The notes under the pieces: generated by a model
What the model saw: only the letters and a program-made list of their open reading frames with translations
What the model was told of the DNA's origin: nothing
Database searches by the model: none
Part shown: in pieces, positions 2,316 to 16,965 of the stretch
Layout of the letters: every line of letters starts with the position of its first letter
Numbering within the stretch: position 1 is the first letter of the stretch
Position numbers and translations under genes: made by a program
Assembly (NCBI GenBank): GCA_016763615.1
Contig: JAESTJ010000069.1
Location: 1-18,049, forward strand
Source of the DNA: Minisyncoccota bacterium
GTDB lineage: Bacteria; Patescibacteriota; Minisyncoccia; Phycocordibacterales; UBA2100
DNA: 18,049 bases
Direction of reading: 5' to 3'

Positions 2316-2316
2316 G

Positions 2317-2353: not shown

Positions 2354-2399
2354 TAAAAACTGAAAAACTTTTAATCTCAAAGGTCAATCCAGTTTGAAG

Positions 2400-2846: not shown

Positions 2847-2851
2847 AATAA

Positions 2852-2874: not shown

Positions 2875-2884
2875 CTTTAATTTT

Positions 2885-2912: not shown

Positions 2913-2918
2913 ATGGTT

Positions 2919-3902
2919 ATGAAATACAAATTTGTAGGACTGGGTGACATTGTGACAGATGCGTTTATACAACTTAAAGATGGTGTTCACATTGAGAGCG
3001 ACGAACACGGTGAAGAATTAAGAATACGATTTGGTGATAAATTAGAATACGAAGACGTAACAGTGGTAGCCGCTGTCGGAAACGCTCCAAATGCTGCAGT
3101 TTCAGCATTTCGCTTAGGTCTTTCCACTGCTCTCGTAACAGACATCGGAGACGATGACTTTGGAAAAGAGAAGCTAAGAACTCTCGAAGCTGAAGGGATA
3201 GACACCAGTCTTGTGGAGGTTCACAAGGGCATGCAAAGTAACTATCACTACGTACTGCGTTTTGGAGCTGAACGAACAATCCTTATTAAGCACCACGAGT
3301 ATCCGTATGAAATCCCAAGTTTTGACGAAGCACCTGAGTGGATTTACTTTTCGAGTGTCGGAGAGCACGGTATAGAGTATCACCATGAATTGGCGACCTA
3401 CTGTAAAGAAAATGGCGTGAAGTTGGCATTTCAACCAGGAAGTTTCCAGATTTCCCTCGGTAGCGAAAAAATTAAAGATATCTATGAGGCGTGTGAAATA
3501 TTTTTCTGCAATAAAGAGGAGGCTCAACGGATTCTTGATTCCAAAAGTAATGATATGAAGGAACTTATTGATGGAGTGCGCGCACTTGGTCCAAATATAG
3601 CTGTCGTAACTGATGGACCAAAGGGAGCGTACGCTTCAAATGGTGAGGGTTACTGGAAGATGCCGATGTACCCTGATCCAGCACCACCCGTTGATCGCAC
3701 TGGTGCAGGCGACTCATTCTCGAGCACGGTGGTTTCTATGCTCGCGGAAGGAATGGCTCTCCCTGAAGCACTCCAACGTGGTCCCATTAACTCGATGAAC
3801 GTAGTCCAGCATATTGGTGCTCAAAAAGGCTTACTCACGCGAGAGCAACTGGAGAACCTCTTAGCTAAAGCACCAAATGACTATAAACTTGAAGAGTTGT
3901 AA
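2919..3902 (+). CDS. PfkB/ribokinase family carbohydrate kinase
   Basis: Cytoplasmic ATP-dependent sugar or sugar-phosphate kinase of the ribokinase fold, 327 aa from MKYKFVGLGDIVTDAF. Family signatures are present: an N-terminal GLGDIVTDAFI strand, the AAVGNAPNAAVSAFRLG region (51-67) corresponding to the first PfkB signature, and DRTGAGDSFSS (259-269) with anion-hole glycines and catalytic base Asp265. The VVTDGPKGAY stretch (229-238) is typical of the nucleotide-binding half. The substrate could be ribose, fructose, fructose 6-phosphate or a nucleoside; the sequence does not decide this. Neighbouring aldolase and pentose-phosphate genes make a role in feeding sugars into those pathways likely. 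The pseudopilin gene starts 29 bases downstream. Confidence 0.88.
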   Translation: MKYKFVGLGDIVTDAFIQLKDGVHIESDEHGEELRIRFGDKLEYEDVTVVAAVGNAPNAAVSAFRLGLSTALVTDIGDDDFGKEKLRTLEAEGIDTSLVEVHKGMQSNYHYVLRFGAERTILIKHHEYPYEIPSFDEAPEWIYFSSVGEHGIEYHHELATYCKENGVKLAFQPGSFQISLGSEKIKDIYEACEIFFCNKEEAQRILDSKSNDMKELIDGVRALGPNIAVVTDGPKGAYASNGEGYWKMPMYPDPAPPVDRTGAGDSFSSTVVSMLAEGMALPEALQRGPINSMNVVQHIGAQKGLLTREQLENLLAKAPNDYKLEEL

Positions 3903-3924
3903 GTAGTAACATGACTGATAGAAT
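3897..3924 (+). promoter_or_regulatory. Promoter of the pseudopilin gene, leaderless type
   Basis: TTGTAA (3897-3902, overlapping the kinase stop codon), a 16-base spacer and TG-A-TAGAAT (3916-3924) are followed by 7 bases and the ATG at 3932. This placement supports the third in-frame ATG as the true start. Confidence 0.5.
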
Positions 3925-3931
3925 GATACAT

Positions 3932-4399
3932 ATGAGCATACATAAGCAGAGGGGTTTCACCTTGATTGAACTCTTGGTGGTTATTGCGATAATCGGAATG
4001 CTCTCTAGTGTGGTTCTTGCCTCACTCAACTCTGCGCGTGAAAAATCTCGTGATGCGCGACGTCTTTCAGATATTAGACAGATTCAAACAGCGCTCGAGC
4101 TCGCTTTTGATAGTACAAGCCCCGTAGAGTATCCAAATGCCTTATCTACACTCGTCTCATTAAATTATCTCCCCAGTGAACCAAAAGACCCACGGACGGA
4201 CGTAGCATACTATTATGCAAATCTCACTAATGCAGGCGCTGGTTGTGTGGGTGGTGCGGGTAACGCGTGTACAAACTACGTTCTTGGAGCAAATCTGGAA
4301 AATTCAAGCCATGGTGCTCTCGCTTCTGATATTGATACTGACTTTTTAAGCGTAAGTGGCCCAAATTGCGTAGACCCAGTTTACTGCGTACAACCTTAG
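3932..4399 (+). CDS. Type IV pilin-like/type II secretion pseudopilin
   Basis: Starting at MSIHKQRG, the protein has a class III prepilin leader of 8 residues. A prepilin peptidase should cut between Gly8 and Phe9, giving mature FTLIELLVVIAIIGMLSSVV with the conserved Glu at mature position 5 and a 20-residue hydrophobic helix. The following stretch, NSAREKSRDARRLSDIRQIQTALELAF, continues the long helix typical of this superfamily, and the C-terminal globular part (PVEYPNALSTL onward) holds four cysteines that could form two disulfides. It would be an inner-membrane protein that assembles into a pilus or pseudopilus used for adhesion, DNA uptake or secretion. ATGs at 3911 and 3923 would only lengthen the leader. 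It stands alone among metabolic genes and ends before a strong terminator. Confidence 0.88.
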   Translation: MSIHKQRGFTLIELLVVIAIIGMLSSVVLASLNSAREKSRDARRLSDIRQIQTALELAFDSTSPVEYPNALSTLVSLNYLPSEPKDPRTDVAYYYANLTNAGAGCVGGAGNACTNYVLGANLENSSHGALASDIDTDFLSVSGPNCVDPVYCVQP

Positions 4400-4424
4400 A
4401 TTACTTTTGTAGTATCAAAAAATT

Positions 4425-4453
4425 AAAAACACTGCCGAATGGCAGTGTTTTTT
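4425..4453. terminator. Bidirectional rho-independent terminator
   Basis: ACACTGCC-GAAT-GGCAGTGT forms a perfect 8-bp stem with a 4-base loop. It is flanked by an A-run on the left and a T-run on the right, so it can end both the plus-strand pseudopilin transcript and the minus-strand transketolase transcript, which converge here. Confidence 0.9.
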
Positions 4454-4478
4454 GTCATGTGAGGCTTTCGAGAACTCT

Positions 4479-5468
4479 CTACTTCCTTCCTAGTACTTTC
4501 TTAGCAGCCTTAACAATCGCTTTAGAATCAAGCTCATACTCTGCAATAAGTTCATCTGGGGTACCTGACTGCCCAAACACATCTTTTACGCCGATAAACT
4601 CCATCGGTACTGGATTATTCTTTGCGAGCAATTCAGAAATAGCACCTCCTAAACCTGCAGCTGCCTGATGTTCTTCAATTGAGACTACGGCGCCAATTTC
4701 CTTCGCAAGCTTAATAATAGAATCATCATCAAGTGGTTTTATGGTGTGACTATTCAAAACTACCGTTCCAATTCCCTCTTTTTCTAATTCTTTTGCAGCT
4801 ACCAAAGCGTGATAGAGCAGATGTCCACATCCGATGAGTGCCACATCAGTCTTTTCACTTCGCCACATTTCATATGCCTTTCCGATTTCAAACTTAGTTT
4901 CAGATGTTGTCATCACTGGAGTTTTCTCCCGTGCTAGACGCATGTACGTTGGGGAGTCTGTTTGAGCGATTGCCAGAGTAGCTCGCCATGCTTCATTAGT
5001 GTCACACGGAGTTATAACGTGCATTCGTGGAATAACTCTCATTATTGCCATATCTTCAATTGCTTGATGAGTTCCACCATCGGGACCAACAGAAACTCCA
5101 GCGTGGCTTCCGACAATTTTTACTGGTCTATTATTGTACGCCTCTGTCGTTCGAATTTGCTCCCAGTTTCTTCCAGGAGAAAACATCGCATATGATGTAA
5201 TAAAAGGTATTTTCCCTGATGCTGCTAATCCTGACGCAACTACTGCCATATTCTGTTCGGCTACTCCCATTTGTACAAACCTCTTAGGATATTTCTCAGC
5301 AAATGCCTGCATGCGAGTTGAACCAGTTAAATCTGCACAAAGCCCCACAACATTTTCATCTGCATCTCCAGCTTGAACTAAACCTTCACCAAAACCATTG
5401 CGCAGTGGCACCTGCTCTACATCTGCATCGAAAATTTTTTTATTTAATTTTTCTTTTTCGTTTAGCAT
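4479..5468 (-). CDS. Transketolase, C-terminal subunit (split enzyme)
   Basis: This carries the pyrimidine-binding and C-terminal domains of transketolase, which moves two-carbon ketol units between sugar phosphates using thiamine diphosphate. It is 329 aa from MLNEKEK. The conserved Glu71 in GVAEQNM activates the cofactor, and FITSYAMFSPGRNWEQIR and GPDGGTHQAIEDMAIMR (128-144) are diagnostic of transketolase-type subunits. The C-terminal domain includes VLNSHTIKPLDDDSI and ends with FGQSGTPDELI. The ATG chosen begins 2 bases after the N-subunit stop codon; an upstream extension would overlap that gene. The two halves are expected to form an alpha2beta2 complex. DXS-like proteins are related, but the two-gene split and these motifs favour transketolase. 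Confidence 0.92.
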   Translation of the reverse strand: MLNEKEKLNKKIFDADVEQVPLRNGFGEGLVQAGDADENVVGLCADLTGSTRMQAFAEKYPKRFVQMGVAEQNMAVVASGLAASGKIPFITSYAMFSPGRNWEQIRTTEAYNNRPVKIVGSHAGVSVGPDGGTHQAIEDMAIMRVIPRMHVITPCDTNEAWRATLAIAQTDSPTYMRLAREKTPVMTTSETKFEIGKAYEMWRSEKTDVALIGCGHLLYHALVAAKELEKEGIGTVVLNSHTIKPLDDDSIIKLAKEIGAVVSIEEHQAAAGLGGAISELLAKNNPVPMEFIGVKDVFGQSGTPDELIAEYELDSKAIVKAAKKVLGRK

Positions 5469-5470
5469 AA

Positions 5471-6340
5471 TTAATCGCAATCGTGGCAAACTATTTTTCC
5501 ACCTAATGTTCTAAGTTCTTTTAAGGCCATGTCTGCCTCTTCCTTATTTGGTGGTTTACCATGCCACTGATAATCCCTTTCAAATTCTTTAACTCCTTTT
5601 CCTGGAATAGTGTGCGTAATAAGTACTGATGGTTTATCGTTCACTGATTGAGCCTCTCCCATTGCCTCGTCGAGTGCCGTAAAATTGTGCCCGTCTACTT
5701 CAATAACATGCCAACCAAATGATTCCCATTTTTCTTTGAGTGGTTCAAGGGGCATTACATCCCATGTGTAGCCATCAATTTGTATTCCATTTCTATCAAC
5801 AATTCCTATAAGATTTTGAAGTTTTTCGCGCCCCGCAAGCATCGCGCTCTCCCAAATGATTCCACAGTTAAGTTCCCCGTCTCCCATGAGAACATATATA
5901 TAATTATCGGTATTACGCCCCTTATTCATGCGCTCAGCGAGAGCCATGCCAACTGCCTGACCTAAACCAGAACCCAAAGGTCCTGAACTTGCCTCAATAC
6001 CGGGAAGAAACTCGCGATGTGGATGTCCTTGCAAACGGGCGTGCAACTTGCGCAACGTCTTGAGTTCCTCAACTGGAAAATAACCGGCACGTGCCATAGT
6101 TGCGTATTGCACAGGACATATGTGACCGTTTGAAAGCACTACCTTATCTCGTCCCTCGAGATTAGGATTCTCTGGATCGTGATTCATTGTATGGAAATAC
6201 AATAACGTAAAGACATCTGCCATCCCCAAAGGACCTGCAGTGTGGCCTGAGCCAGCACTCAAGAGCATCTCTATAATATCTTGGCGAATAGTGTTCGCTG
6301 TACTCTCGAGCTCTACTATTTTTATGTCATTAAGCGTCAT
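5471..6340 (-). CDS. Transketolase, N-terminal subunit (split enzyme)
   Basis: This 289-aa protein is the diphosphate-binding half of a split transketolase. Visible features are SAGSGHTAGPLGMADV (29-44), LSNGHICPVQYA (69-80) with substrate or cofactor histidines 33 and 73, SSGPLGSGLGQAVGMAL (118-134), and the thiamine-diphosphate/metal motif GDGELNCGIIWE (153-164) with the Asn of VDRNGIQIDG. It overlaps the rpe-like gene by 11 bases and leads the C subunit by 2 bases, so translation is probably coupled and the subunits made in equal amounts. The frame extends two codons upstream through a TTG; the ATG at 6340 is preferred. Its last residues, CHDCD, are an unusual C-x-x-C ending. Confidence 0.92.
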   Translation of the reverse strand: MTLNDIKIVELESTANTIRQDIIEMLLSAGSGHTAGPLGMADVFTLLYFHTMNHDPENPNLEGRDKVVLSNGHICPVQYATMARAGYFPVEELKTLRKLHARLQGHPHREFLPGIEASSGPLGSGLGQAVGMALAERMNKGRNTDNYIYVLMGDGELNCGIIWESAMLAGREKLQNLIGIVDRNGIQIDGYTWDVMPLEPLKEKWESFGWHVIEVDGHNFTALDEAMGEAQSVNDKPSVLITHTIPGKGVKEFERDYQWHGKPPNKEEADMALKELRTLGGKIVCHDCD

Positions 6341-7025
6341 GAGCAAAAGAACTTACTAGTTTTTGTAAACGCACCAGTTCTTCTTCTGGAGCGTGTGTTT
6401 TCATTATCGCGGAGCCAATACCAAATATATTTACACCTGCATCAAATAAAGATTTTAGTGTGTCTGCATTTACTCCTCCGTCAACTGATATTGTAACATC
6501 TGGGAACTGCTCCCGCAGTTTTTTAATACGTGCAAGTGCTCGCTCATCAAATTCCTCTCCCTGATATCCAATACGATTGATACTCATAACCTGAACAATC
6601 GAAACATATCCCGACTCAACCAACGCAATAACTTCTTCTAGTGGCGTATCCAATAATATAGACACTCCCGTTTCAATTCCTGTTTCTTTCCATTCCTTAA
6701 ATACATGAGGAGCCTGATTTTCTTGAAATCCCTCAATCTGTGCTGTGACACGTTTAACACCCGCTCCAATAAATTGTTTTCCAATTTCTTGCGGCTGTTG
6801 CACCATTAGGTGCACCTCAAAATTAATATCTTCTGCGTGGGGAATCTGTCGTCCATCGAGAGTCGTTTCGTTATAAGGAAAACTTGAGGGAGGAACTAGA
6901 TGTCCGTCCATAACGTCAATCTGCGCATGAGTGGCACTCTTTGCTATAGATTCAATTTGCACTACAAGTGAGTCCCATTCATCAGCCATTATTGCTGGTG
7001 CAATTAGTGGGTACTCACTACGCAT
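6330..7025 (-). CDS. Ribulose-phosphate 3-epimerase-like protein (divergent)
   Basis: TIM-barrel enzyme of the Rpe family, expected to interconvert ribulose 5-phosphate and xylulose 5-phosphate, the donor sugar for the transketolase encoded next to it. Seen: QIDVMDGHLVP (35-45), EVHLMV (70-75) and SVDGGV (180-185), which correspond to the metal and catalytic segments, and FGIGSAIM for phosphate binding. Two differences stand out. The first metal-binding His of H-x-D-V-M-D-G is Gln35, and the usual N-P-G-F-G-G-Q loop reads INRIGYQG (149-156). The remaining ligand positions Asp37, His72 and Asp182 are kept. The substrate or metal may therefore differ from standard Rpe. The 231-aa length is normal. 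It overlaps both neighbours by 8-11 bases. Confidence 0.75.
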   Translation of the reverse strand: MRSEYPLIAPAIMADEWDSLVVQIESIAKSATHAQIDVMDGHLVPPSSFPYNETTLDGRQIPHAEDINFEVHLMVQQPQEIGKQFIGAGVKRVTAQIEGFQENQAPHVFKEWKETGIETGVSILLDTPLEEVIALVESGYVSIVQVMSINRIGYQGEEFDERALARIKKLREQFPDVTISVDGGVNADTLKSLFDAGVNIFGIGSAIMKTHAPEEELVRLQKLVSSFAHDA

Positions 7026-7278
7026 GTAGATACGAGAGTCCTTGGAGTCCTGGCTGTGGCACTATTTCGTAACCAGCACCTTTCGGCCAAAAAATGAACG
7101 CAAGTACTAAGGCGAGTACACCAATGGCAATCAATACTATTGATGCTTGTTTAGCATCTTTAGCAAGTCCGAGTTTAATAACGAGTTTTATTAGCCATGA
7201 GTTACGTGGTCGGCGAGGTCCGCGATTATACGCCATTCCTGGTTCATTAAACTGTACTTGTTTATTGTTATTGGGCAT
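7018..7278 (-). CDS. Small single-pass membrane protein, 86 aa
   Basis: Starting at MPNNNKQVQFNEPG, a basic, Pro/Arg-rich N-terminal tail (residues 1-27) precedes a short amphipathic stretch (WLIKLVIKLGLAKDAK, 28-43) and one strong membrane helix at about 46-64 (IVLIAIGVLALVLAFIF). A short C-terminal tail follows, and the positive-inside rule puts the N-terminus in the cytoplasm. I know no family for it. Its position between rpiB and the epimerase gene, with an 8-base overlap to the latter, shows it is part of the pentose-phosphate operon although nothing suggests an enzymatic role. The longer upstream reading frame overlaps rpiB and crosses a promoter-like element, so it was not used. Confidence 0.65.
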   Translation of the reverse strand: MPNNNKQVQFNEPGMAYNRGPRRPRNSWLIKLVIKLGLAKDAKQASIVLIAIGVLALVLAFIFWPKGAGYEIVPQPGLQGLSYLHA

Positions 7279-7285
7279 ATTGTAT

Positions 7286-7294
7286 ATACTATCA
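7286..7294 (-). promoter_or_regulatory. Extended -10 element before the 86-aa gene
   Basis: The minus strand reads TG-A-TAGTAT, then 7 bases, then the ATG at 7278. This matches the leaderless-type arrangement seen at other starts, but the hexamer is only a 4/6 match to consensus. Confidence 0.35.
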
Positions 7295-7312
7295 CTACTA
7301 AACACTCTACAA

Positions 7313-7774
7313 TTACTCTGTGTGGAGAGCTTCTTCAATCTTTTTAATGCGGCGAATGTGTCTCTCTTCACCGCTAAATTTTGTAGAAAGCCACTTTCTA
7401 ACGCCTTCGCGTGCAGTTTCTAAATCCACAAAACGTGCGCCGATACTCAGTATATTTGCGTCATTATGCTGTCGTGAGAGCCGCAGAATTTCGTCCGTCC
7501 CTCCATACCAAACAGTGGCTCGTACGTTGGGAAACCTATTTGCAACCATCGCCTCACCTTGTCCCGAGCCGCCGAGCACGATAGCCCGAGCTGTCTCGGG
7601 TGCTTCCGAGATAGCTCGGGCTGCCGAGACAATAAAGTCTGGGTAGTCGTCTTTTGGGTCTAGACTTTTTACTCCTAAATCTTCTACCTCTAATCCAAGT
7701 TCATCTCGCACAAAAGAAACTAACTCTTCTTTGAGTTCAAAACCGGCATGGTCTGTGGCGAAATATATTTTCAT
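7313..7774 (-). CDS. rpiB: Ribose-5-phosphate isomerase B
   Basis: RpiB/LacAB-fold isomerase that interconverts ribose 5-phosphate and ribulose 5-phosphate in the cytoplasm; 153 aa from MKIYFATDHAG. Asp8-His9 of the ATDHAG motif, YPDF (44-47), GGSGQGE (68-74) and HNDANILSIGARF (103-115) mark the active site. There is no catalytic Cys in the C-G-T-G-x-G position found in the E. coli type. The GGSGxGE form fits the actinobacterial-type RpiB, in which a Glu (here Glu74) is the base. The chosen ATG lies 6 bases after a perfect extended -10; an 18-codon upstream extension would run through that promoter. It leads the operon with the 86-aa protein, the epimerase and the transketolase subunits. Confidence 0.92.
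   Translation of the reverse strand: MKIYFATDHAGFELKEELVSFVRDELGLEVEDLGVKSLDPKDDYPDFIVSAARAISEAPETARAIVLGGSGQGEAMVANRFPNVRATVWYGGTDEILRLSRQHNDANILSIGARFVDLETAREGVRKWLSTKFSGEERHIRRIKKIEEALHTE
7583..7622. repeat. Intragenic inverted repeat in rpiB
   Basis: The 17-base arms (7583-7599, AGCCCGAGCTGTCTCGG, and 7606-7622) pair with a single mismatch around a 6-base loop. It lies entirely inside the rpiB coding region, at codons for AARAISEAPETARAIV. Protein length in this segment is near normal, so it is not an obvious insertion. Confidence 0.8.
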
Positions 7775-7780
7775 ATTGCA

Positions 7781-7789
7781 ATTATAACA
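7781..7789 (-). promoter_or_regulatory. Perfect extended -10 promoter of rpiB
   Basis: The minus strand reads TGTTATAAT followed by 6 bases and the ATG at 7774. This is the best consensus promoter in the window and predicts a transcript that begins at the start codon. Confidence 0.65.
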
Positions 7790-7868
7790 TGCAGTAATTT
7801 CTCCATCACTATTCCTTGTATCGACCAATGAGTTTATTCAAGAATCCTAAGACTGACATCAGCTATAT

Positions 7869-9392
7869 CTATGATGCGCTACCAACGGTAATTTCAAAAT
7901 CTTTGTATGCCCAAGCTTCATTTGCAGATACTTGCCACCATGCTCGCACAAATAACTTATCTGTACCTGATGGAACTGATACATCGATTGAATGTTTTGA
8001 ATACGGAGCATTGCTGTAGTTTGGTACAAATGATTTAAAGCCCAAGCCTCCCCAAGGACTTTTACCAAGTTCCCCTTTGTTTGTCGCAACCCCTATACCA
8101 ACTGATTTTGCAGGCGTCTCGAACTGCACCGTTATTGGGAGTTTTGAAATCGGGGGAATAGACGTGCCAGTTATTAAGAATGCATTACCTCTTTGGCTAG
8201 AATCAGCAACAATTGTAAACTGTGCTGTTGTAAGTCGTTGATATCCACCCTGTGTATAAAGACGCACTTCATATCTACCTGGTCCAAATGCGCCGTAGGT
8301 ATTATCTCGCACCCATTTAAATGTAGCTGTGCCTGCTGGAGCAAGGGTGGTGGGCTTAATGCGTGTGCCACTTAAATAAAGCCAATCAATCCAATATTTT
8401 CCACTATCGGGATCGCCGATATGATAAATACCAATCCAGTCTGTATCGGTTACATTTTGGGAATTTTGAAAAGAAACTTCTATATCCTCTCGTTGTTCAT
8501 ATACTAATTTGTTAGTAGAAAGCGACGCATCGATGATTGCTGAGATTGGTGGTGTAGGAATATAGATGGGACTTGGCGCCCTTACAACATTGAACCGAGG
8601 TGCAGGTACAAGGAACTTCTCAAACGCACCATTTTTGAACACACGAACCTCGTACGCTCCAAGATCTAAGGAATTGGTTGCAAATGTAACGGCTCCATCA
8701 GTTAGTGGCGGATGTTGCTCTGCATTTTTACTGTTATCTAGATATTTCCAGTCGATGTACTTAGTGTCATCTGCTTGTGATTGTTTGTACAATCCTACCC
8801 AATGACGTTTTGCACCAACAGGCGTTTGTAGTCCGGAAACTTTTACTGCCATCGTTTCTCCTTGTACATACTGCGGCTGATCTATAGAGAGAGTAACCGA
8901 ATTTCCAGAAAGGGAAGACACCGCGCTGTTGCATGTCATGGCAGACCTCGTTCTTGGACCAATGACTCCGTAACCGTTTATTTCGGGAGAACCGGAGGAA
9001 AGAATACCGTTTCGTGCCTGCCACTTTTGCACAGCTCGCTCTGTCGCAGGACCAAAGTATCCTGTGAACTCTCCATATGTATAGTCGCCTGTTCTTTGCA
9101 GGAATCTTTGTAGCTTGGATATTTCTCCATTTGGTATGTTGTCACGCGAGCCGATATCTAAATTACGTGAAAGTGAGACACATGACTGAGATGATATTGG
9201 TGCTGGTGTTGCGTTTTGTATTGCTGCACGCGCTGCACTAACTTTGTCAGGAGCTATAATGCCTAATGATACAAACAAATCTACAACCTCCTCTACAGTA
9301 ATGGCGTTAGCTGTTTGTGCGAACGCAAAACTCGAAGCTAGAATTGTAAATGCAGTAAACAGTACAAGTGCCTTGTTTTTAATAATTAACAT
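7869..9392 (-). CDS. Secreted peptidoglycan-binding protein with repeated beta domains (507 aa)
   Basis: The N-terminal signal peptide (hydrophobic residues 8-24, likely cut after AQTANA or nearby) predicts export. A short helical segment (VEEVVDLFVSLGIIAPDK) is common in Parcubacteria surface proteins and precedes a PG_binding_1-type domain at about 71-154 (EISKLQRFLQ, YFGPATERAVQKWQ, IGPRTRSAM), bounded by Cys71 and Cys154. Two related beta-sandwich repeats follow at about 165-270 and 288-395. Both show W-[VI]-G-[LI]-Y, a Y-x-x-W-x-Y-L segment, and G-x-Y-E-V-R near their ends, reminiscent of SKICH/Ig-like modules. A third beta domain (402-507) closes the protein. It probably binds the cell wall and displays the repeats outside. 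No catalytic motif was seen. It has no visible functional link to rpiB downstream. Confidence 0.8.
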   Translation of the reverse strand: MLIIKNKALVLFTAFTILASSFAFAQTANAITVEEVVDLFVSLGIIAPDKVSAARAAIQNATPAPISSQSCVSLSRNLDIGSRDNIPNGEISKLQRFLQRTGDYTYGEFTGYFGPATERAVQKWQARNGILSSGSPEINGYGVIGPRTRSAMTCNSAVSSLSGNSVTLSIDQPQYVQGETMAVKVSGLQTPVGAKRHWVGLYKQSQADDTKYIDWKYLDNSKNAEQHPPLTDGAVTFATNSLDLGAYEVRVFKNGAFEKFLVPAPRFNVVRAPSPIYIPTPPISAIIDASLSTNKLVYEQREDIEVSFQNSQNVTDTDWIGIYHIGDPDSGKYWIDWLYLSGTRIKPTTLAPAGTATFKWVRDNTYGAFGPGRYEVRLYTQGGYQRLTTAQFTIVADSSQRGNAFLITGTSIPPISKLPITVQFETPAKSVGIGVATNKGELGKSPWGGLGFKSFVPNYSNAPYSKHSIDVSVPSGTDKLFVRAWWQVSANEAWAYKDFEITVGSAS

Positions 9393-9418
9393 AGCGATAA
9401 TTTATAGATATTAATAAT

Positions 9419-9526
9419 TTAACTATACCACGCCCTATTAGCACATAAGTTTCTTTGCGTGGAAAATTTTACGAGTACCCCCTTAAGCTCGAACCCCGCG
9501 TGATCTGTGGCGGAATATATTTTCAT
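9419..9526 (-). pseudogene. Truncated second rpiB (fossil fragment)
   Basis: The minus strand from 9526 reads MKIYSATDHAGFELKGVLVKF before turning into unrelated codons and a stop at 9419. The intact rpiB at 7774 reads MKIYFATDHAGFELKEELVSF. Over the first 15 codons the DNA differs at 8 of about 44 positions, nearly all at silent sites, so the fragment came from an rpiB that had long been functional, not from a recent copy. The remaining enzyme (YPDF, GGSG and HNDAN motifs) is absent. The fragment begins right against the inverted-repeat element at 9527-9682. It ends 26 bases upstream of the 507-aa surface-protein gene. Confidence 0.75.
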
Positions 9527-9688
9527 CCCGTTAGAAATAAGGCACAGAAACATACCAATTTCTGAGTCTCATTAGATTACTTTTTCTAATATTGACCTTT
9601 TCCATACTATTTAAAATTCCGTGTCTGCCTGCCCCGTTAGAGATTTTGCGGTACATCTCTAACTGGGGTGATTTCTAACGGGATTCAT
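9522..9688. mobile_element. Possible MITE-like element with terminal inverted repeats and TTCAT flanks
   Basis: Terminal repeats CCCGTTAGAAAT (9527-9538) and ATTTCTAACGGG (9671-9682) are perfect inverted copies; the match extends to 14 bp (9525-9538 and 9671-9684). TTCAT is found on both sides (9522-9526 and 9684-9688), as expected for a 5-bp target duplication, with one extra base at 9683. The interior has no coding potential and holds an inner hairpin built from the same motif. The element separates the gap stop codon from the rpiB fossil. Confidence 0.5.
9632..9668. repeat. Inner hairpin built from the element's terminal motif
   Basis: CCCCGTTAGAGAT (9632-9644) pairs with ATCTCTAAC-T-GGGG (9655-9668) with one bulged T and a 10-base loop. 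There is no T-run after it on the minus strand, so it is not a classical terminator, although it could stop or protect the gap transcript, whose stop codon ends at 9694. Confidence 0.65.
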
Positions 9689-9693
9689 ACAAC

Positions 9694-10677
9694 TTACACG
9701 TGCGTAGCGGTTGCAACAACGTGATCTACCAATGCATTTGCATACCCTACTTCATTGTCGTACCAAGCAAGTACTTTTACCAAATTCCCCCCCACCACTC
9801 GAGTCATAGAAAGATCAGCAATTGATGCATGCGTGTTACCGATAATATCAGTTGAAACAAGTGGTTCGTTGGTTACATCGAACACGCTTTTCCAGCGTAT
9901 GTTCCCTGCCGCTCTGGTTAGCGCTTCATTAACTTCTTCTGCGGTCGTATTTTTCTTTGCAATAAATGTTATGTCCACGATAGAACCAGCAGGAACGGGA
10001 ACGCGCAGTGCAATTCCGTCAAATTTATCGGTAAGTTGTTTATGCACTTTAGTGGTGGCAACAGCTGCTCCAGTTGACGTTGGAATGATATTTACTGCGG
10101 CTGCCCTTCCCTTTCGCGGGTCTTTCTTCGAGGGTCCATCAACTGTTCGTTGAGTTGCAGTGTAACCATGCACCGTGTTGAGCATAGCTTTCTCAATCCC
10201 TATTGTTTCGTCCAATATTCCAATTACAGGGCTGCCAGCATTTGTGGTGCACGAAGCATTGCACGTTATTGCATTTTCTTTCAAGTCATCCTCGTTAACA
10301 CCCATGAGGACTGTTGTGGCATCTTTCGAAGGAGCAGAAATCACCACTCGCTTAGCCCCCGCATCAATATGTTGCTGTGCTTGATCTCTATCACGAAAAA
10401 ATCCTGTGCTCTCAACCACAACATCAATCCCTAACTCCTTCCAAGGAAGATTTGCGGGGTCTTTTTCTTGTAAAAATTCTGTAGTACTTAATTTCTTAAG
10501 AATCTCCTCTCCTGTCTTTCCGTAGACAGAATCATATTTGAGGAGATATTCTAAATTCGCTTTGTCACCAAGATCATTAATGGCAACTATCTCTAATTCA
10601 TCTCGTACTGCGGCCAGCTTAAAAAATGCTCGCCCTATTCGTCCAAACCCATTTATTGCAATTTTTGTGGTGCTCAT
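9694..10677 (-). CDS. gap: Glyceraldehyde-3-phosphate dehydrogenase
   Basis: Cytoplasmic NAD(P)-dependent enzyme that oxidises glyceraldehyde 3-phosphate to 1,3-bisphosphoglycerate. It is 327 aa, with the NAD-binding NGFGRIGR at 9-16, the catalytic ASCTTN with Cys143, His170 in TVHGYTATQ, and WYDNEVGYA near the end (305-313). The segment after VYGKTGE (51-57) is several residues shorter than in E. coli GAPDH: the usual V-N-G-K-x-I hairpin is lacking. The downstream EKDPANLPW is intact, so activity is expected. It lies 33 bases after the Cys/His-rich 409-aa gene but has its own extended -10, so it is likely expressed separately. It receives triose phosphate from the aldolase and transketolase reactions encoded nearby. 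Confidence 0.96.
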   Translation of the reverse strand: MSTTKIAINGFGRIGRAFFKLAAVRDELEIVAINDLGDKANLEYLLKYDSVYGKTGEEILKKLSTTEFLQEKDPANLPWKELGIDVVVESTGFFRDRDQAQQHIDAGAKRVVISAPSKDATTVLMGVNEDDLKENAITCNASCTTNAGSPVIGILDETIGIEKAMLNTVHGYTATQRTVDGPSKKDPRKGRAAAVNIIPTSTGAAVATTKVHKQLTDKFDGIALRVPVPAGSIVDITFIAKKNTTAEEVNEALTRAAGNIRWKSVFDVTNEPLVSTDIIGNTHASIADLSMTRVVGGNLVKVLAWYDNEVGYANALVDHVVATATHV

Positions 10678-10710: not shown

Positions 10711-11940
10711 TCATCTACTGAGGGTTTCACTATTTTTCTCCATGTTTTTGCAAAAGGTGGTAGATAATACTCTGCTGCTACACATTTCTTCCAACTCTAT
10801 ATCGGTACGAAAACGTTTAAGTTTTCCAAGCAATTCTCTATCACACAATGGACGCTCGTCCACCGTAAGCTGATCCGATTCACAAAAATTTATAGCATTC
10901 TTGTAATCAGTTCCAGGAATAGTATGTTCCACCAATCCTCCTATTATTCCTAATATACATTGGTTCTTAAGTTCCATACGATCAATACTTTGACAAGCAC
11001 TGAGTAGAGTAATCTGATCATTCTGTGGATTTTGTTGTACGACCCCTGCAACTCCGACTGACATAGCTATTGTCTGTAAATCAACGCGCTTGGCTTTCTC
11101 TACAATTGCTACCATTTTTAGTGGATCACCATTACTTAATCCGTCAATCTTCTGAGCAATTTCGTAGTAACAATCGAACTGACGCTCATAAGGTTCGCGG
11201 TCACACATAGCAAATGGCTCTACAGTATTGTATGACAATCCATATTCTCCGTCCGCCATCCAATCAACAATAACGTTGTACACACCCTGACGACACTCTG
11301 CTATTTCTGTGTCACTTGCCTGTGGTAATGATTCACATTGCTCCAGAGGTTTCTGTGTGAAAGCTTCCACTGACCACTGTGATTCTTGTGTAAGTTCATC
11401 AGCACGAGCCAACAAAAATCCATGACCTGAACCGTGGTAGCATGTTTGAGAAATTGCGGGAGCAACATCTCCCAAGTTATTACGCATGTATTCGCACATC
11501 TGCGTCACAAACTCCACACTCGTATTGTCTTGAACAAGATGCTCAAAAAAACCATGATAAAAACCGTAGCCACAGGCAGTAGCTCCTTTAGGAAAATCCA
11601 TCTTGGTGAAATCTTTGTGAGTAAGGTAATCGAAGTAGTAGGACATGTCACCAATACGATGTGCGTGTCGATGACACCCTGTATTGGCAAAAACCTCATA
11701 ATTCTTGTATACAACCTCAAAAACATCAAATGCTGCCTGAGTTCCATCTACATCAAATGCCCCGCGCATGATATCCTGCCAACAATCTATTTTTTCCGTT
11801 TCATTTGGAGACTTCTCATCACAGGCTACTATTTCCGAAGCTAAGATGCCTTGTGGGTACACAGTAAAGCCTACGAAGCCAAAGAACAGCAAACTGAAAA
11901 CAGCTAACGCTATATATTGAAATTTATTTTGCAACAACAT
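10711..11940 (-). CDS. Membrane-anchored Cys/His-rich helical protein A (409 aa)
   Basis: Not a family I can name. An N-terminal membrane helix or uncleaved signal (9-27) is followed by an extracytoplasmic domain with 16 or more cysteines. Three His motifs come first: CHRHAHRIG (89-97), CGYGFYHG (123-130) and CYHGSGH (167-173). Cys pairs with 10-13 residues between follow: 202/216, 246/257, 316/328, 353/366 and 387/397, plus 40/53 near the start. These look like disulfide-tied helical hairpins. Two paralogues upstream (13333-14577 and 14613-15626) share the layout. Its start lies inside the end of the 126-aa cupredoxin-like gene (17-base overlap), so translation is coupled and a joint role is likely. 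Metal binding or redox is inferred; there is no C-x-x-C-H heme motif. Confidence 0.7.
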   Translation of the reverse strand: MLLQNKFQYIALAVFSLLFFGFVGFTVYPQGILASEIVACDEKSPNETEKIDCWQDIMRGAFDVDGTQAAFDVFEVVYKNYEVFANTGCHRHAHRIGDMSYYFDYLTHKDFTKMDFPKGATACGYGFYHGFFEHLVQDNTSVEFVTQMCEYMRNNLGDVAPAISQTCYHGSGHGFLLARADELTQESQWSVEAFTQKPLEQCESLPQASDTEIAECRQGVYNVIVDWMADGEYGLSYNTVEPFAMCDREPYERQFDCYYEIAQKIDGLSNGDPLKMVAIVEKAKRVDLQTIAMSVGVAGVVQQNPQNDQITLLSACQSIDRMELKNQCILGIIGGLVEHTIPGTDYKNAINFCESDQLTVDERPLCDRELLGKLKRFRTDIELEEMCSSRVLSTTFCKNMEKNSETLSR

Positions 11941-12304
11941 GTATAACTCCGGTAAAATATGAACGTATATGGTCGTGGAAATTATAACTTCCTACGCGAT
12001 TAAAAGTGAACTTCCACGTTTCTTGGGACTCCAAAGGTCGCAATGGATCAAACTCAGAATATATACTGTGTGAAGGATGTAGATTTGAAGCTGGCCAAAA
12101 AGGTTTATCCATTGTGGTTGTGAATGTCACCGTACCACCTTGGATAATAGTCACCTCTCGAGGTTCGAATCCACTCTCACCAAGCTCCACATGAACTGAC
12201 TGCTTAGCAGAATCAAATTGTTGGACTTTCTCTTTCCCCAGAAAAGCGAATCCTGCGATTCCAGCGAGAAGCACAACTACTACTAATAGTACCAATTTAT
12301 TCAT
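11924..12304 (-). CDS. Membrane-anchored cupredoxin-like protein, noncanonical (126 aa)
   Basis: An N-terminal membrane helix (3-22) carries an exported beta-sandwich of about 95 residues. The pattern V-x-V-x-x-x-G-F-x-P-x-x-V-T-I-x-x-G-x-x-V-T-F (37-61) is the usual start of a cupredoxin. The later FWPASNLHPSHSIYSEFD (69-86) and YNFHDHIRSYFTGVIHV (107-123) replace the copper loops. The type 1 ligands (Cys, second His and Met of C-x-x-H-x-x-M) are missing: the Cys position is Asp111, and the protein contains no cysteine. Candidate new metal ligands are His76, His79, His110 and His112. It starts 3 bases after the 181-aa gene and overlaps protein A by 17 bases. Copper binding is possible but unproven. 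Confidence 0.75.
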   Translation of the reverse strand: MNKLVLLVVVVLLAGIAGFAFLGKEKVQQFDSAKQSVHVELGESGFEPREVTIIQGGTVTFTTTMDKPFWPASNLHPSHSIYSEFDPLRPLESQETWKFTFNRVGSYNFHDHIRSYFTGVIHVVAK

Positions 12305-12307
12305 ATT

Positions 12308-12853
12308 TTAACTTCTGTCCTTTCTTCTATTGCGACGCATGAGCATAAACGGCACAGAGGACAGAACTAGACCTCCTAGAAATCCTAATACTATGTATGT
12401 AATTTTCCCTCTACCACCTTGTTCAACCTCTCCTTGCTCGACAACAAGTGGAAACGTTGCTTCTACAACATTTTTTCCGTCATTTTGATAGCGCACAGAA
12501 AGTTCGTATTGCCCCGCACCAGGAAATTTGTACGTCATAAGAGCTCCACCAAGTCGAGCGTTGTGTACTCCTGTGGCAAACACCGTAGATGTATCTTTTA
12601 CAATGCGAACCCATACATCGGTAAAGAAAACTTCTTCTTCTTCACTTTTAACGTCAAAATTAAAAACGACAGAGGCATCTGTTGTGAAATTTGCAGTACT
12701 GTATCCTACGTCAATCAGTGTATTTCCAACTTGCTTTTCGAAAGATTCTTCCGAGCCATGCGCCGATGTTGTTGCACTGCCAACGAAAAGAACAGCTATT
12801 ATCACCGCAAGTGCAATTGCAATATACTGGCTCTGCTTTTTTGAAACACTCAT
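12308..12853 (-). CDS. Exported Ig-like (YtkA/FixH-like) protein with N-terminal His and C-terminal membrane helix (181 aa)
   Basis: A signal peptide (hydrophobic 10-25) ends in ATTSA, and cleavage there would expose His32 as the mature N-terminus (HGSEESFEKQVG). A beta-sandwich of about 90 residues (48-138) follows, with NFTTDASVVFNFDV, VWVRIV and GAGQYELSVRY, resembling YtkA/FixH-type domains, which are often found with copper proteins. A C-terminal membrane helix (152-171) ends in a basic RRNRRKDR tail, placing the domain outside and the tail inside. It has no cysteines. The gene lies between two cupredoxin-like genes, 12 bases after one and 3 bases before the other. An accessory role in metal handling is inferred from context and the N-terminal His. 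The family assignment is tentative. Confidence 0.65.
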   Translation of the reverse strand: MSVSKKQSQYIAIALAVIIAVLFVGSATTSAHGSEESFEKQVGNTLIDVGYSTANFTTDASVVFNFDVKSEEEEVFFTDVWVRIVKDTSTVFATGVHNARLGGALMTYKFPGAGQYELSVRYQNDGKNVVEATFPLVVEQGEVEQGGRGKITYIVLGFLGGLVLSSVPFMLMRRNRRKDRS

Positions 12854-12865
12854 GACTTTTAACGT

Positions 12866-13276
12866 TTATTCAACAGTTATTACTCCTGTATGGAATGGTG
12901 CTAAATGGTCATGAAATCGCCATTCTCCAACACGTCCAAATACAAAACTCCAAGTTTTCTCAGCCTCTATTGGAACTTTGGAATCAAATTCAGAATATAT
13001 GCTATGCGTGGGATGTATATTCGAAGCTGGCCAGTGTAGTTTTCCATACTCAGGACTTGTCGAGAATATAATTTTGTCTCCCGCGGATATGCTGATTTCC
13101 GAAGGTGTATAGCCGTCCTTGGTAAGTACAATACGATGCTCTACACCAGTGGGAGAAACTACTGTTTGTTGTTCCGGCACATCTCCTTTAAGTGTATCTT
13201 CCCCTTTGTTTTGAGAAATAAAGAAGCCAGCTAAAGCCAGCGCGAGCAGTACAAGGAATCCTATGAAATACTTCAT
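12866..13276 (-). CDS. Membrane-anchored cupredoxin-like protein, noncanonical (136 aa)
   Basis: This is a paralogue of the 126-aa protein in the same operon. A membrane helix at residues 4-20 is followed by a linker and a cupredoxin-like domain (about 47-136). Shared signatures are WPASNIHPTHSIYSEFD (82-98), the GRVGEWRFHDH turn (114-124) and TGVITV at the end. It has no cysteine, so a type 1 (blue) copper site is not possible; the C-x-x-H-x-x-M loop reads DHLAPFHTG. His81, His88, His91, His122, His124 and His129 could form a different metal site. It is the first gene of the four-gene unit and is driven by a well-formed promoter with no room for a leader. Exported and anchored facing outward. 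Confidence 0.78.
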   Translation of the reverse strand: MKYFIGFLVLLALALAGFFISQNKGEDTLKGDVPEQQTVVSPTGVEHRIVLTKDGYTPSEISISAGDKIIFSTSPEYGKLHWPASNIHPTHSIYSEFDSKVPIEAEKTWSFVFGRVGEWRFHDHLAPFHTGVITVE

Positions 13277-13332: not shown

Positions 13333-14577
13333 TTAATCCCCGGCGTAAAAAGGTGCTCGTACAGGGGATTTACCTGTATTAAGACAGCTCTCTTTCCATG
13401 GAGAGGGTAATGCGTTGCATAATCTCAAAAATGGTTCAGAACCAACATGATAATTATATCCTGAGTAAAAAAGTAACTCCTGGAAACACGTCTCTCCTAC
13501 ACCTTCTTTACCAGCACTGTCACATATGTTCACAGCTTTTTGAGCGAGTCGATAATCTGTCTCAAGAAAACGAGAAGCTGAATTTGCAAAACACTGTGCT
13601 TTTATATCGCCACTTAATACACTACACATTTGCGTAATATTTTCGGTATCGAAATTTGTTCTTGCGGCTGATACATAAAAAATAGCGCTCAAACACCTCG
13701 TTTTGTTAAAGCCCTCAAAATCACTGCTGCAGAAATTTTCGACAAGACGTGGGTCGTCGTCAATATCATCGATAAACAAAGGCCACGATTCAGTAAGACA
13801 CGACGCACGTTTTTTTCCCTCAAACTGACTACAAAATGCTACGGACTCTTCTTGTGTTTTTGGCTCTATATCTTGTACCAGTGCAATGTCTTCAGGTTCT
13901 AGCGGCTGAAATATCTGCATAAAGGCACCGTCATAACATAAGCTGCTGAAATCTTTCTCGCCTTCAATGCTGACTCTATCGCATAACTGGATAGATTCGG
14001 GGGCGTCAGCATTGGTAATATACATACTGAGGTGTCCAAGGGCATGGTAGCAACTAGCTTGCTCGAGACCTGTAAAATCTCTGTTTCCAGCTTTAACTTC
14101 ACATATACTTTTAATCTCTGGTATCAATTCTTCTAATTGTTCCTCACTTACATATTCTCCACGAAATCTTTCTTGAAATGCACCATGCAAAGAACCATTT
14201 GAACACATGCCATTTGGGGCTCTCGCAACCACTTCAGTCCATTTTGAAACATCTTTTGCAGCTTCTTTAGCACTAAGGTTATGCCCAAGTACGTGACAAT
14301 ACCAATACGAAGAATCTTGATTCTGAATAAGGGCAGTTACTTTAAATGCATCTTCAAATGAAAATCCCCTATCCATCACTTTCGGAATTTCGGTGTCATA
14401 ACAAGCCGGTTTATAACTCTCATCTTTACATACCTCGATTACTTTAGCAGCTTGTTCGGCAAAACGAGCCTCTGAGGTTGGCGTATGAAAATAGAAGAAT
14501 GTAGCAGCACTAAAAAAAGAAATGACTCCTACTATTCCAATTAGTGTTAAAACTTTTTTACTGATTAGGAATCTCAT
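13333..14577 (-). CDS. Membrane-anchored Cys/His-rich helical protein B (414 aa)
   Basis: A second member of the unnamed family. The N-terminal membrane helix spans 8-30. The first His motif is WYCHVLGH (92-99), the second MCSNGSLHG (124-132) and the third CYHALGH (176-182). Six Cys pairs then follow at regular distance: 199/214, 249/260, 283/295, 318/329, 352/364 and 387/398, plus 50/59 before the motifs. Between pairs the sequence is helical and acidic (for example MCSVLSGDIKAQCFANSASRF without its last residue), so the C-terminal half is probably a disulfide-stapled helical superhelix outside the membrane. It sits 35 bases after protein C and 56 bases before the cupredoxin operon. Function unknown. 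Confidence 0.7.
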   Translation of the reverse strand: MRFLISKKVLTLIGIVGVISFFSAATFFYFHTPTSEARFAEQAAKVIEVCKDESYKPACYDTEIPKVMDRGFSFEDAFKVTALIQNQDSSYWYCHVLGHNLSAKEAAKDVSKWTEVVARAPNGMCSNGSLHGAFQERFRGEYVSEEQLEELIPEIKSICEVKAGNRDFTGLEQASCYHALGHLSMYITNADAPESIQLCDRVSIEGEKDFSSLCYDGAFMQIFQPLEPEDIALVQDIEPKTQEESVAFCSQFEGKKRASCLTESWPLFIDDIDDDPRLVENFCSSDFEGFNKTRCLSAIFYVSAARTNFDTENITQMCSVLSGDIKAQCFANSASRFLETDYRLAQKAVNICDSAGKEGVGETCFQELLFYSGYNYHVGSEPFLRLCNALPSPWKESCLNTGKSPVRAPFYAGD

Positions 14578-14612: not shown

Positions 14613-15626
14613 CTATGGTAATGGTGTTGCTAAATCATACGATTCCAAACATATTTCCTTCTCCATACTGGAGAGATTCTCACACATATCTTTTGCTCTA
14701 TCGGAAAAATTTGGGTTACTAAACATGCTCCACGCCGCTCCTGCGTGGCAAAGAGTTTGTACGTTCTCGGGAATACTGCTACACAAGGCCGAACTTTTTT
14801 CCACACTATATTCATTTGTTGGACCAATAATATTTCCCAAACCTAGGGCACACATATCTCGCAATTGTGTATCTGCTATTTCAGAACAAAGCTCGCCCAT
14901 TTTTAACTTGTCTCCTTTTAAAACCACCTCCCACCAACCACCAAGCTCGTAGTAGCACGACTCCTGATATTCACTATCGACCTCGTTGCACGCTCCATAG
15001 GGATGCTCTTCACTAAACGGATACGGCTCTGGTAGAGCTTCTCCTGGTAAAACGGTAAAAGGAGTATTGTGCTCCATAAATACACCTGAAGTACAGCCTA
15101 ATAACGGTGTCGGCTGAGATGTTTCTTTACAAAGGGATAGTGCTTCATTCAAACGGTCAGGACCAGTATATTCAACAATACCGTGACCAATACCATGTTG
15201 GCACCCTGTACCAAATACTCCATACCTTGCGACACACGTGGTGTCGGCTTCCTTAATAAAAGACCTTCCTCGAGAAGCGAACCCAACCGTGAACAAACCA
15301 TGGAAACAGCCAAATCCAAAATTTGAGTCACAAATTGCTATTCCATTAATTTCTTCCGTACTGAAAAGTGCTTCTCCCATTACATGTGCACGTATATGTT
15401 GTACACCTAACGGCGCTGATTTATTACTGTCTATAAATTTTTTGTACGAAGAATCTGCACCTTTTTTTTGTATTTCTTTTATCCAAAAGGATAAATCTTC
15501 CTGAGCGGCGTATGTAGCCGGTTCTATTTGTGAAGCTACGTCTCTTTCGTTCGACAAAAAAAGCAAAGAGAGTCCAGTTCCAAGTAATATTATAGCCCCG
15601 AACACAATAATCAATGATTTCTTCAT
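14613..15626 (-). CDS. Membrane-anchored Cys/His-rich helical protein C (337 aa)
   Basis: The third member of the family. From MKKSLIIVFG the protein has one N-terminal membrane helix (4-24), which makes this a better start than the frame's upstream extension of 12 codons. The motifs are HIRAH (77-81), FGFGCFHG (103-110) with Cys99 just before, and GCQHGIGHG (141-149) with Cys131 before it. Five Cys pairs follow: 166/178, 213/224, 247/259, 282/293 and 315/326. The spacing of motifs and pairs parallels proteins A and B, although overall identity looks low. The gene lies 43 bases after the DUF5011-like gene and 35 bases before protein B. Extracytoplasmic metal or redox role is only inferred. 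Confidence 0.7.
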   Translation of the reverse strand: MKKSLIIVFGAIILLGTGLSLLFLSNERDVASQIEPATYAAQEDLSFWIKEIQKKGADSSYKKFIDSNKSAPLGVQHIRAHVMGEALFSTEEINGIAICDSNFGFGCFHGLFTVGFASRGRSFIKEADTTCVARYGVFGTGCQHGIGHGIVEYTGPDRLNEALSLCKETSQPTPLLGCTSGVFMEHNTPFTVLPGEALPEPYPFSEEHPYGACNEVDSEYQESCYYELGGWWEVVLKGDKLKMGELCSEIADTQLRDMCALGLGNIIGPTNEYSVEKSSALCSSIPENVQTLCHAGAAWSMFSNPNFSDRAKDMCENLSSMEKEICLESYDLATPLP

Positions 15627-15669: not shown

Positions 15670-16965
15670 TTAAGATGTAGTGCTCGTGGCAGTACTAGTC
15701 GCTGTAGTTTCCTCTGTAGTGGTGGCCGTTTCTTCTTGGGTAGCTTCAGTGGTTGTTGCCGTTTCTTCTGTAGTGGCCGCCGTCTCAGTAGTCTGCTCTT
15801 GTGTAGTAGTCGCTGTTTCTTCTTGGGTAGTTTCGGTTGTTGTTGCTGTGTCTTCTGTAGCTTGCTCTGTAGTAGTTGCAGTTTCTGTTGTTTCTTCAGT
15901 AGTCGTTGCTGTCTCTTGAGTTGTAGTAGCTACTTCTTCTGTCGTGGTAGCCACTTCTTCGGTGGTAGTAGCAGTTGTTGCGGTGTCTTCTTCTTCAACT
16001 GTAGTAGCATTCGGGTCATACACAATAACGACACGTTCTACAAAGCTCGTGACATCACTTGAGTCAGTTGCTGAATATCCTACTGTCCAATCAGATACAG
16101 TGGTTGTGTCTATGCTTATATTACTCACATCATCTCCGTTAAGTGAAAGTGAAATACTGAGACCAAGAGTTACCCCTTCTTGGCTTGTAGTCACTGCTCC
16201 TAAGTCACTATACGATGCATTTAGTGGAATCCGTGCTGGGTTTGCTCCAAGAATAGTAATGACAGGGCCCACGCTCGCTTCTTCGGTGTTATCGGAATTG
16301 GAATTTGAGCTATTATTTGAATCTGAGTTAATTTGAGCTGCTGCAAAATCAAACGGTATTACATCGCCCTTTTCAGCTCGAGCTATCGCAGCAGGGTCCA
16401 CCTCTTCAACTACAGGTTCACTCACAAGCGGAACATATCCCGGAAGTTGCTCTGTATTCTCATCAATAAATTGACCTACAAGACCACTATATGCTGTAGC
16501 AACCACCTTATTTGTTACCTGACGACGTTCTATCCCTTGCACTTCCTGTAGGTATGCAATCTCTCTATCAACTAGCTGTTTTAGCTGCTCTGTTACATAC
16601 ACGCCAAGGTCAACGTACTGTCCGAGTACATTTCTATCAACTTGCATGGTTTTTTGTTGTGCTACGTCTTGCCATACGCCTTCGGCAAGGGCAATAGTGG
16701 TAAACGTATACTCAATATAGTAAAACTCACTGTCTTCTGTGACACCACTGATGCTAACCTTAGGACTATATGCATCAAGATTTTTATTCGATATATATGA
16801 GTTATCGATAGAAACTACTCGTTGTTCAGCCTCGAACACACTGTCGGCTACAAACTCCCTCACTTCTTCATTTGCTGCAAACACCAATCCGGACGAAAGA
16901 AAAAGAATACCGAGGACAATAGGTATTGCATTATTATACGTAAGAAAATGTATGAAACGTCGCAT
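15670..16965 (-). CDS. Secreted DUF5011-like surface protein with Thr/Glu/Ala-rich tail (431 aa)
   Basis: The N-terminal signal or anchor spans residues 12-30. Residues 31-180 form a mixed, helix-containing domain (for example EQLKQLVDREIAYLQEV) that I do not recognise. An Asn/Ser-rich linker (212-228) leads to a bacterial Ig-like domain of DUF5011/HYR type at about 233-317 (GPVITILGANPARIPLNASY, SDLGAV, WTVGYSATDSSD). The last 112 residues are almost only Thr, Glu, Ala and Gln in imperfect ATTTEE-type repeats. There is no sortase motif or C-terminal membrane helix. The tail resembles a spacer or glycosylated stalk. It likely belongs to the cell envelope and starts the minus-strand block of exported proteins. 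Confidence 0.75.
   Translation of the reverse strand: MRRFIHFLTYNNAIPIVLGILFLSSGLVFAANEEVREFVADSVFEAEQRVVSIDNSYISNKNLDAYSPKVSISGVTEDSEFYYIEYTFTTIALAEGVWQDVAQQKTMQVDRNVLGQYVDLGVYVTEQLKQLVDREIAYLQEVQGIERRQVTNKVVATAYSGLVGQFIDENTEQLPGYVPLVSEPVVEEVDPAAIARAEKGDVIPFDFAAAQINSDSNNSSNSNSDNTEEASVGPVITILGANPARIPLNASYSDLGAVTTSQEGVTLGLSISLSLNGDDVSNISIDTTTVSDWTVGYSATDSSDVTSFVERVVIVYDPNATTVEEEDTATTATTTEEVATTTEEVATTTQETATTTEETTETATTTEQATEDTATTTETTQEETATTTQEQTTETAATTEETATTTEATQEETATTTEETTATSTATSTTS
15673..16008 (-). repeat. Low-complexity coding repeat (ACNACNGARGAR-type units)
   Basis: The stretch codes for residues 320-431 of the surface protein. Short units that translate as ATTTEE, ATTTQE and ATTTEA recur irregularly, and the DNA has the matching triplet bias. 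Such tracts change length by slippage. Long open frames on the opposite strand here are a by-product. Confidence 0.85.

Follow-up and report, generated by a model that had tools for sequence, protein, structure and literature searches.

What would bacteria of a group with very small genomes do with a row of genes for proteins with conserved histidines, all predicted to be anchored outside the membrane? The question is raised by six consecutive genes in a Minisyncoccota bacterium (assembly GCA_016763615.1, contig JAESTJ010000069.1), within the 18,049-nt stretch of DNA analysed here, which we call the window. An earlier note had picked out four of these genes, encoding two cupredoxin-like proteins, an immunoglobulin-like (Ig-like) protein and a Cys- and His-rich protein A, and had suggested an envelope assembly for metal handling or electron transfer. 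We hold with moderate confidence that the window contains an example of a Patescibacteria module for binding metal outside the cytoplasm, undescribed until now, with copper as the most likely metal. Three co-located families carry this reading, each predicted to be membrane-anchored and each with a conserved set of His residues.

The gene block and its three protein families

All six genes lie on the minus strand. In the direction of transcription they encode protein C (14613..15626; 337 residues from an ATG, with the reading frame extending to 15662 from a TTG), protein B (13333..14577; 414 residues), the cupredoxin cup1 (12866..13276; 136 residues), the Ig-like protein (12308..12853; 181 residues), a second cupredoxin, cup2 (11924..12304; 126 residues), and protein A (10711..11940; 409 residues). 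The last four are separated by gaps of 12 and 3 bases and then overlap by 17, exactly as had been described, and B and C are indeed directly upstream. Since B and C also share a family with A, as its paralogues, the quartet is the downstream part of a predicted six-gene block; the four genes of the supposed operon therefore stand, while its extent does not. Nor does the good promoter said to precede the first gene, as promoter-like sites are fewer than in shuffles and do not rise above chance. Anchoring outside the membrane, which had been proposed for the four products, is predicted for all three families.

Proteins A, B and C belong to a family to which we give the working name CHC. They have in common a CHxxxH-like stretch, a helix with GxxHG, and a CxHGxGH motif. 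In protein A, which has 16 Cys, these place five His at H90 and H94 (motif 1, HRHAH, 11659..11673, adjoining Cys89), H129 (motif 2, the His of CGYGFYHG, 11554..11556) and H169 and H173 (motif 3, HGSGH, 11422..11436, two residues past Cys167); the five-His motifs recur in B, with 18 Cys, and in C, with 14. Across an alignment of 26 members, H90, H94, G126, H129, C149, C167, H169 and G172 show no variation, nor do further Cys, and H173 is almost as constant. In a larger set of 284 rows, where some proteins are present as both a locus and a database row, H94 is kept in 282, H169 in 283, H173 in 281 and H90 in 267, with all five His together in 263. The Cys columns co-vary as sequential pairs (phi 0.99, 0.90 and 0.81), and Cys89 and a Cys two residues before the motif-2 His are mutually exclusive, found in 205 and 63 of the same rows respectively, with both in 5 and neither in 11. 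Searched directly within a small set, A matches C and B matches C at E 3e-5 to 3e-7, which is weak, the B-C link coming from phmmer with C as query (E 3.3e-7). A profile built from A orthologues alone matches C at 1.9e-13, a result reached by none of 1000 shuffles of B and C, and misses B, whose tie to the family runs through C and the shared motifs.

Relatives of CHC were sought by sequence and by fold. The model of protein A is all-helical (predicted local distance difference test 90.8, predicted template-modelling score 0.88). No Pfam family matches A or B at E 1, and C has only one irrelevant weak match; no Pfam, NCBIfam or PDB relative of the family was found, the best E of the CHC profile against PDB sequences being 0.31. 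Foldseek returned nothing below 0.001 (best E 0.04, TM score about 0.2), and VIA returned only helical repeats and similar folds, a comparison that could miss families absent from it and in which a Z at the level seen with alpha-solenoid repeat proteins may reflect only a common arrangement. Tyrosinase and other type-3 copper proteins are built around a helical core with six His ligands. No sequence family match joins them to A, B or C, and the tyrosinase fold is unlisted among the VIA matches; the comparison is one of sequence positions only, with the five conserved CHC His falling as HxxxH, H and HxxxH. The CxxCH haem motif is absent from the six window proteins and occurs in 1 of 302 CHC sequences, and no virus-borne CHC copy was confirmed among 19 pattern matches to A-type motifs. 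Judged from alignment and model, CHC is an unnamed, predicted all-helical family with five conserved His and paired Cys that is undescribed by the family libraries searched.

The second family consists of membrane-anchored cupredoxins. A plastocyanin-type (Greek-key) fold, in keeping with the cupredoxin folds that had been claimed, is supported by structure comparison on a fused relative and by an alignment with amicyanin, which makes it probable for cup1 and cup2. The Pfam family Cupredoxin_1 (PF13473) scores the two at 23.6 and 18.6 bits, below its curated cut-off of 27 bits, and this label is carried by many database relatives found with the same profile. Each protein has four His in HPxH and HDH motifs, at positions 88, 91, 122 and 124 of cup1 and at 76 and 79 (HPSH, 12068..12079) and 110 and 112 (HDH, 11969..11977) of cup2, and in a set of 56 rows, with one gene counted twice through overlapping loci, each of the four is kept in 54 to 56. 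In the metal-free model, confidence within the cupredoxin is lowest at the HPTHG loop. Type-1 copper is bound by a Cys, two His and usually a Met. Neither cup1 nor cup2 contains any Cys, 47 of the 56 rows lack it entirely, and no column holds Cys or Met in at least 25% of rows. The amicyanin Cys that we take to be its type-1 copper ligand is faced in the alignment by an Asp of the window cupredoxins (D111 of cup2), which carry the four other His instead. The fold thus stands and the type-1 copper site is rejected, and because the ligand Cys is missing, blue-copper electron transfer by these proteins is unlikely. A purple cupredoxin of Nitrosopumilus (5fc9) and the C-terminal cupredoxin of a Nitrosopumilus multicopper oxidase (9cck) are also among the closest known systems.

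The Ig-like protein has a signal peptide, a predicted mature N-terminal His (H32, codon 12758..12760, residue 1 after signal peptidase cleavage) and a C-terminal membrane helix. A His follows the signal peptide immediately in 11 loci, with the cleavage site predicted solely from an A-x-A-like pattern. In 131 rows, made up of these 11 query loci and 120 listed database relatives that partly repeat them, the N-terminal His is invariant; the residue before it is Ala in 126 rows and Gly in the other 5, and position -3 holds A, V, T, S, L or I. Asp48 and Trp81 are likewise kept in all 131 rows, His exceeds 40% in no further column, and 119 of the 120 database relatives end in a hydrophobic stretch. 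B. subtilis YcnI is reported to bind Cu(II) through the N-terminal His and a Glu, with a Trp alongside (PMC8424229). YcnI (DUF1775, PF07987) shares with the Ig-like protein the signal peptide, the mature N-terminal His, a conserved acidic residue, a Trp and the C-terminal membrane helix; the two differ in their partners, which are CHC and HDH-cupredoxin genes for the Ig-like protein and mainly CopCD for YcnI. PF07987 matches none of 11 Ig-like members at E 0.1. As no Pfam match joins the two, we read the resemblance as one of design and claim no membership in the YcnI family. Against the PDB, the best profile match has E 0.34, and the window protein alone gives none at E 10. The FixH/YtkA identity given to this protein in the earlier note was abandoned, there being no Pfam YtkA or FixH match.

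Linkage and probable copper setting among relatives

How constantly do these families travel together? Occurrence was counted in 59 relatives, of which the 11 with an A match are here called CHC genomes, and in a wider draw of 379 Patescibacteria genomes that includes the window's own (62% complete). CHC is patchy, occurring in 22 of the 379 genomes, with A-like genes in 11 of the 59 relatives; the cupredoxin is commoner (35/59). Linkage was screened in 40 regions using profiles that started from the window's proteins and were extended by iteration over the fetched regions, and which are therefore no independent test of family membership; regions L041-L052 were picked by A or cupredoxin matches, and those from L053 onward by A-type patterns. 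CHC genes are present in 39 of the 40 regions, with up to 11 CHC reading frames in one region, and 37 of those 39 contain a cupredoxin, a figure that is too favourable because the regions of G031, G036, G039 and G054, with their distant CHC matches, are not among the 40. The cupredoxin and CHC are fused in 39 genes from 27 regions, always with the cupredoxin N-terminal, and 19 of 22 stand-alone cupredoxins lie within 1.5 kb of a CHC gene. In an A-only set of 29 loci, obtained after removing five that repeat earlier regions, 27 have a cupredoxin and 11 an Ig-like gene.

The neighbourhood conservation implied by the four-gene view was found in part. Four genomes besides the window's own (G032, G014, G033 and G011) contain a relative of A at 38% identity or more, and in every one of them the gene immediately upstream encodes a stand-alone cupredoxin, the matched stretches being 29 to 94 bases apart. 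The Ig-like gene, which was sought in the 40 regions, occurs in 14, and all three families are together in 14; it is on the same strand as its nearest partner in 14 of 14 and within 180 bases between matched stretches in 13. The exact order cup-Ig-cup-A is seen only in this window among the 40 regions, which counts against the four-gene view. The CHC-cupredoxin link is therefore one of neighbourhood and fusion that is weak at genome level; it covers the fusions and the A-like members of the family but does not extend to all CHC genes.

From these parts a working scheme can be proposed. The N-terminal-His protein would capture Cu(II) as YcnI does, while the four-His cupredoxin would hold a non-blue copper (or zinc) and either hand the metal over to the CHC domain, its frequent fusion partner, or act on that domain. 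A metal site held in place by nearby disulphides may be formed by the five CHC His and could serve as a sink or as a catalyst. The module would be a variant of envelope copper-handling systems, with parts that resemble known designs and with CHC itself lacking any relative found; in the literature library that was searched we found nothing on this module. CopC-CopD is similar in its envelope setting and in the His after the signal peptide seen in CopC. In G017, a 10.8-kb contig encodes a CopC protein (its CopD part is below cut-off) together with a CHC-cupredoxin-Ig cluster; G017 and G033 are the only relatives whose CopC match passes the cut-off, and CHC genes are present in both.

A number of observations weigh against a copper module. 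CopC passes the cut-off in only those 2 of 59 relatives and not in the window's genome, and a copper ATPase (TIGR01511 over cut-off) shows no link, being present in 6 of the 11 CHC genomes and in 37 of all 59 relatives; it is not over cut-off in the window's genome either, at its 62% completeness. A disulphide-enzyme link was rejected, VKOR being over cut-off in 14 of the 59 relatives, 2 of them among the 11 CHC genomes, and so not associated. At genome level the families keep weak company (cupredoxin in 8 of 11 CHC genomes and 27 of 48 others), G031 has CHC and cupredoxin on different contigs, and the 37 of 39 above flatters the link. The near-complete G036, G039 and G054 have distant CHC matches and no cupredoxin match, and for this reason our confidence is lowered. 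The window's own genome has a second CHC pair (L092:3542-5776, contig C2) with no cupredoxin on its 6.9-kb contig, and no Ig-like gene was found in 26 of the 40 regions, some of them cut by contig ends. Finally, the invariant His may instead be structural or bind zinc.

Several cupredoxin and redox genes were seen outside the CHC clusters. In G002, which has no A match, an HDH-cupredoxin adjoins genes for a second cupredoxin and for DsbA-like, DsbD-like, ferric-reductase-like and NAD-binding reductase proteins by Pfam (L096:3893-7788), a possible electron-export chain in the same genus. G005, of the same genus and also lacking an A match, has by eye a cupredoxin beside a ferric-reductase-like membrane protein and a reductase. 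In G046, again without CHC, the neighbours of the cupredoxin are a histidine kinase and a protein with weak similarity to YtkA (E 0.013) that likewise has a His right after its signal peptide. Several others, one in the window's genome, lie beside a small DoxX-like membrane protein (by eye). A respiratory link was also rejected: the only relatives in which COX1 passes the cut-off are G010 and G030, and both lack an A match. The two G010 copies (C15:5905-7212 and 18831-20138; E 1.6e-108, with 10 in-frame TGA codons read through) are odd for the lineage and perhaps come from a contaminant with another genetic code. Overall, the neighbourhoods fit extracytoplasmic copper and redox chemistry, with no pointer to a classical respiratory chain in CHC genomes.

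Alternative roles of the module

Of the other explanations, the one that survives best is a store or resistance system for copper or zinc, in which the expanded CHC proteins act as surface sinks with no catalysis. The many His and Cys per protein, the tandem CHC copies and the CopC beside one cluster are in its favour, but the number and the places of the five His stay constant across very diverged paralogues, a pattern more suggestive of a defined site than of bulk chelation, and the absence of a copper ATPase link counts against it as well; we regard a pure store as rather unlikely. A structural or adhesive role, with CHC solenoids as scaffolds that bind a host cell or the bacterium's own surface layer and His and Cys that only stabilise the fold, is in our judgement doubtful. 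It would agree with the tandem paralogy, the resemblance to helical repeats, the neighbours that look like surface proteins or envelope enzymes and the CHC genes found without a cupredoxin, but it accounts neither for the partner with the N-terminal His nor for the frequent fusion to a four-His cupredoxin.

A bolder version of the copper module makes it an enzyme. Here, CHC would be a new copper enzyme class, in which the cupredoxin and the N-terminal-His protein would load copper into a five-His site framed by disulphides, and this site would oxidise tyrosines of YYSQ-type surface fibres encoded by neighbouring genes to yield cross-linked or adhesive surface appendages. The proposed fibres are a family of surface-like proteins that combine YYSQ-type repeats with a domain containing IDHPLDP..LLYHSFVESPD. 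Single-linkage clustering places this family in 10 of 41 regions, where low-complexity repeats may help the linking, and the domain profile alone finds it in 7 of 40. Tyrosine-rich proteins occur in 5 of the 59 relatives, all five among the 11 CHC genomes, with a chance probability of 9e-5 ignoring relatedness, which is too small because the genomes are related, or 7e-4 without G020, whose hits are to repeats only. In G014 and G032 the family is linked to CHC genes. In the wider draw it occurs in 3 of 379 genomes, namely the window's own, G239, a CHC genome whose hits lie some 3.5 kb away from a CHC gene, and G247, which has no CHC match. This suggests the tyrosine-rich proteins as a possible substrate of the CHC site, but 6 of the 11 CHC genomes have none, and the window's genome has them on another contig. 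We regard the enzyme reading as a whole as quite doubtful. On contig C35 of that genome (L099:8628-10452), three surface-like proteins are encoded in tandem, one with YYQG repeats and 24 Tyr in 247 residues. They lie beside an AMP-ligase-like pair and a 564-residue secreted protein (by eye), kinds of gene that are found near CHC arrays elsewhere.

The weakest alternative is an electron-transfer chain, in which cupredoxins would ferry electrons through the envelope. Such a role for cupredoxins and NirK has been put forward for other genomes of the candidate phyla radiation (CPR): one report places a putative cupredoxin in each nirK-bearing bin, Kaiserbacteria among them (PMC5581439), and another proposes the same role for a single-domain protein (PMC12931201). 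The ferric-reductase neighbours in G002 and G005 agree with an electron-transfer chain, but those genomes have no A match, cup1 and cup2 have no Cys and their 56 rows no Cys or Met column, the six proteins have no CxxCH and the 11 CHC genomes no COX1 over cut-off (the COX1-bearing relatives, 2 of 59, lack an A match), and we consider it very unlikely. Of the envelope metal or electron-transfer assembly that had been proposed, the metal half is thus what remains, with three unrelated families conserving His in their predicted outside parts.

Neighbouring genes and meaning

The genes around the block are of mixed kinds. Window positions 443-10677 encode, by eye, sugar metabolism: a hydroxyacid dehydrogenase, an aldolase-like protein, a PfkB-like kinase, a split transketolase, ribulose-phosphate epimerase-like and RpiB-like proteins and a GAPDH, whose gene (10677..9694) is directly downstream of A. 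Homologues of the transketolase halves, the epimerase, the RpiB-like protein and the GAPDH recur beside CHC in L047 and L056, and the GAPDH also in L043. On the other side, positions 15670-16965 encode a 431-residue membrane-anchored protein with a TTTEE-rich tail, whose family (starting FLxYNNAVPI; by eye) is present in 8 of 41 regions, one relative having a Pfam bacterial surface Ig-like domain. Elsewhere, a pair of proteins (about 156-201 and 319-330 residues) recurs near fused cup-CHC genes (L045:13149-14608, L061:15649-17210 and L070:8890-10349), and the five of these six proteins that were scanned have no Pfam match. Distant AMP-binding genes occur in 8 of 41 regions (L058, L061, L066, L067 and others), two of which were scanned and fell below the Pfam cut-off, and a 550-residue family with no assigned function is found near CHC arrays in 10 of 41.

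For the family, these results give partners to a sizeable group of proteins that has no Pfam or NCBIfam entry, so that what a number of Patescibacteria genomes list as "hypothetical proteins" becomes a metal-binding module open to testing. They also bear on the CPR cupredoxins that have been listed as electron carriers, which may include a Cys-free kind unable to act as blue copper proteins. If the link to tyrosine-rich proteins were true, it would mean a new copper chemistry on the surface of bacteria that spend their lives attached to other cells.

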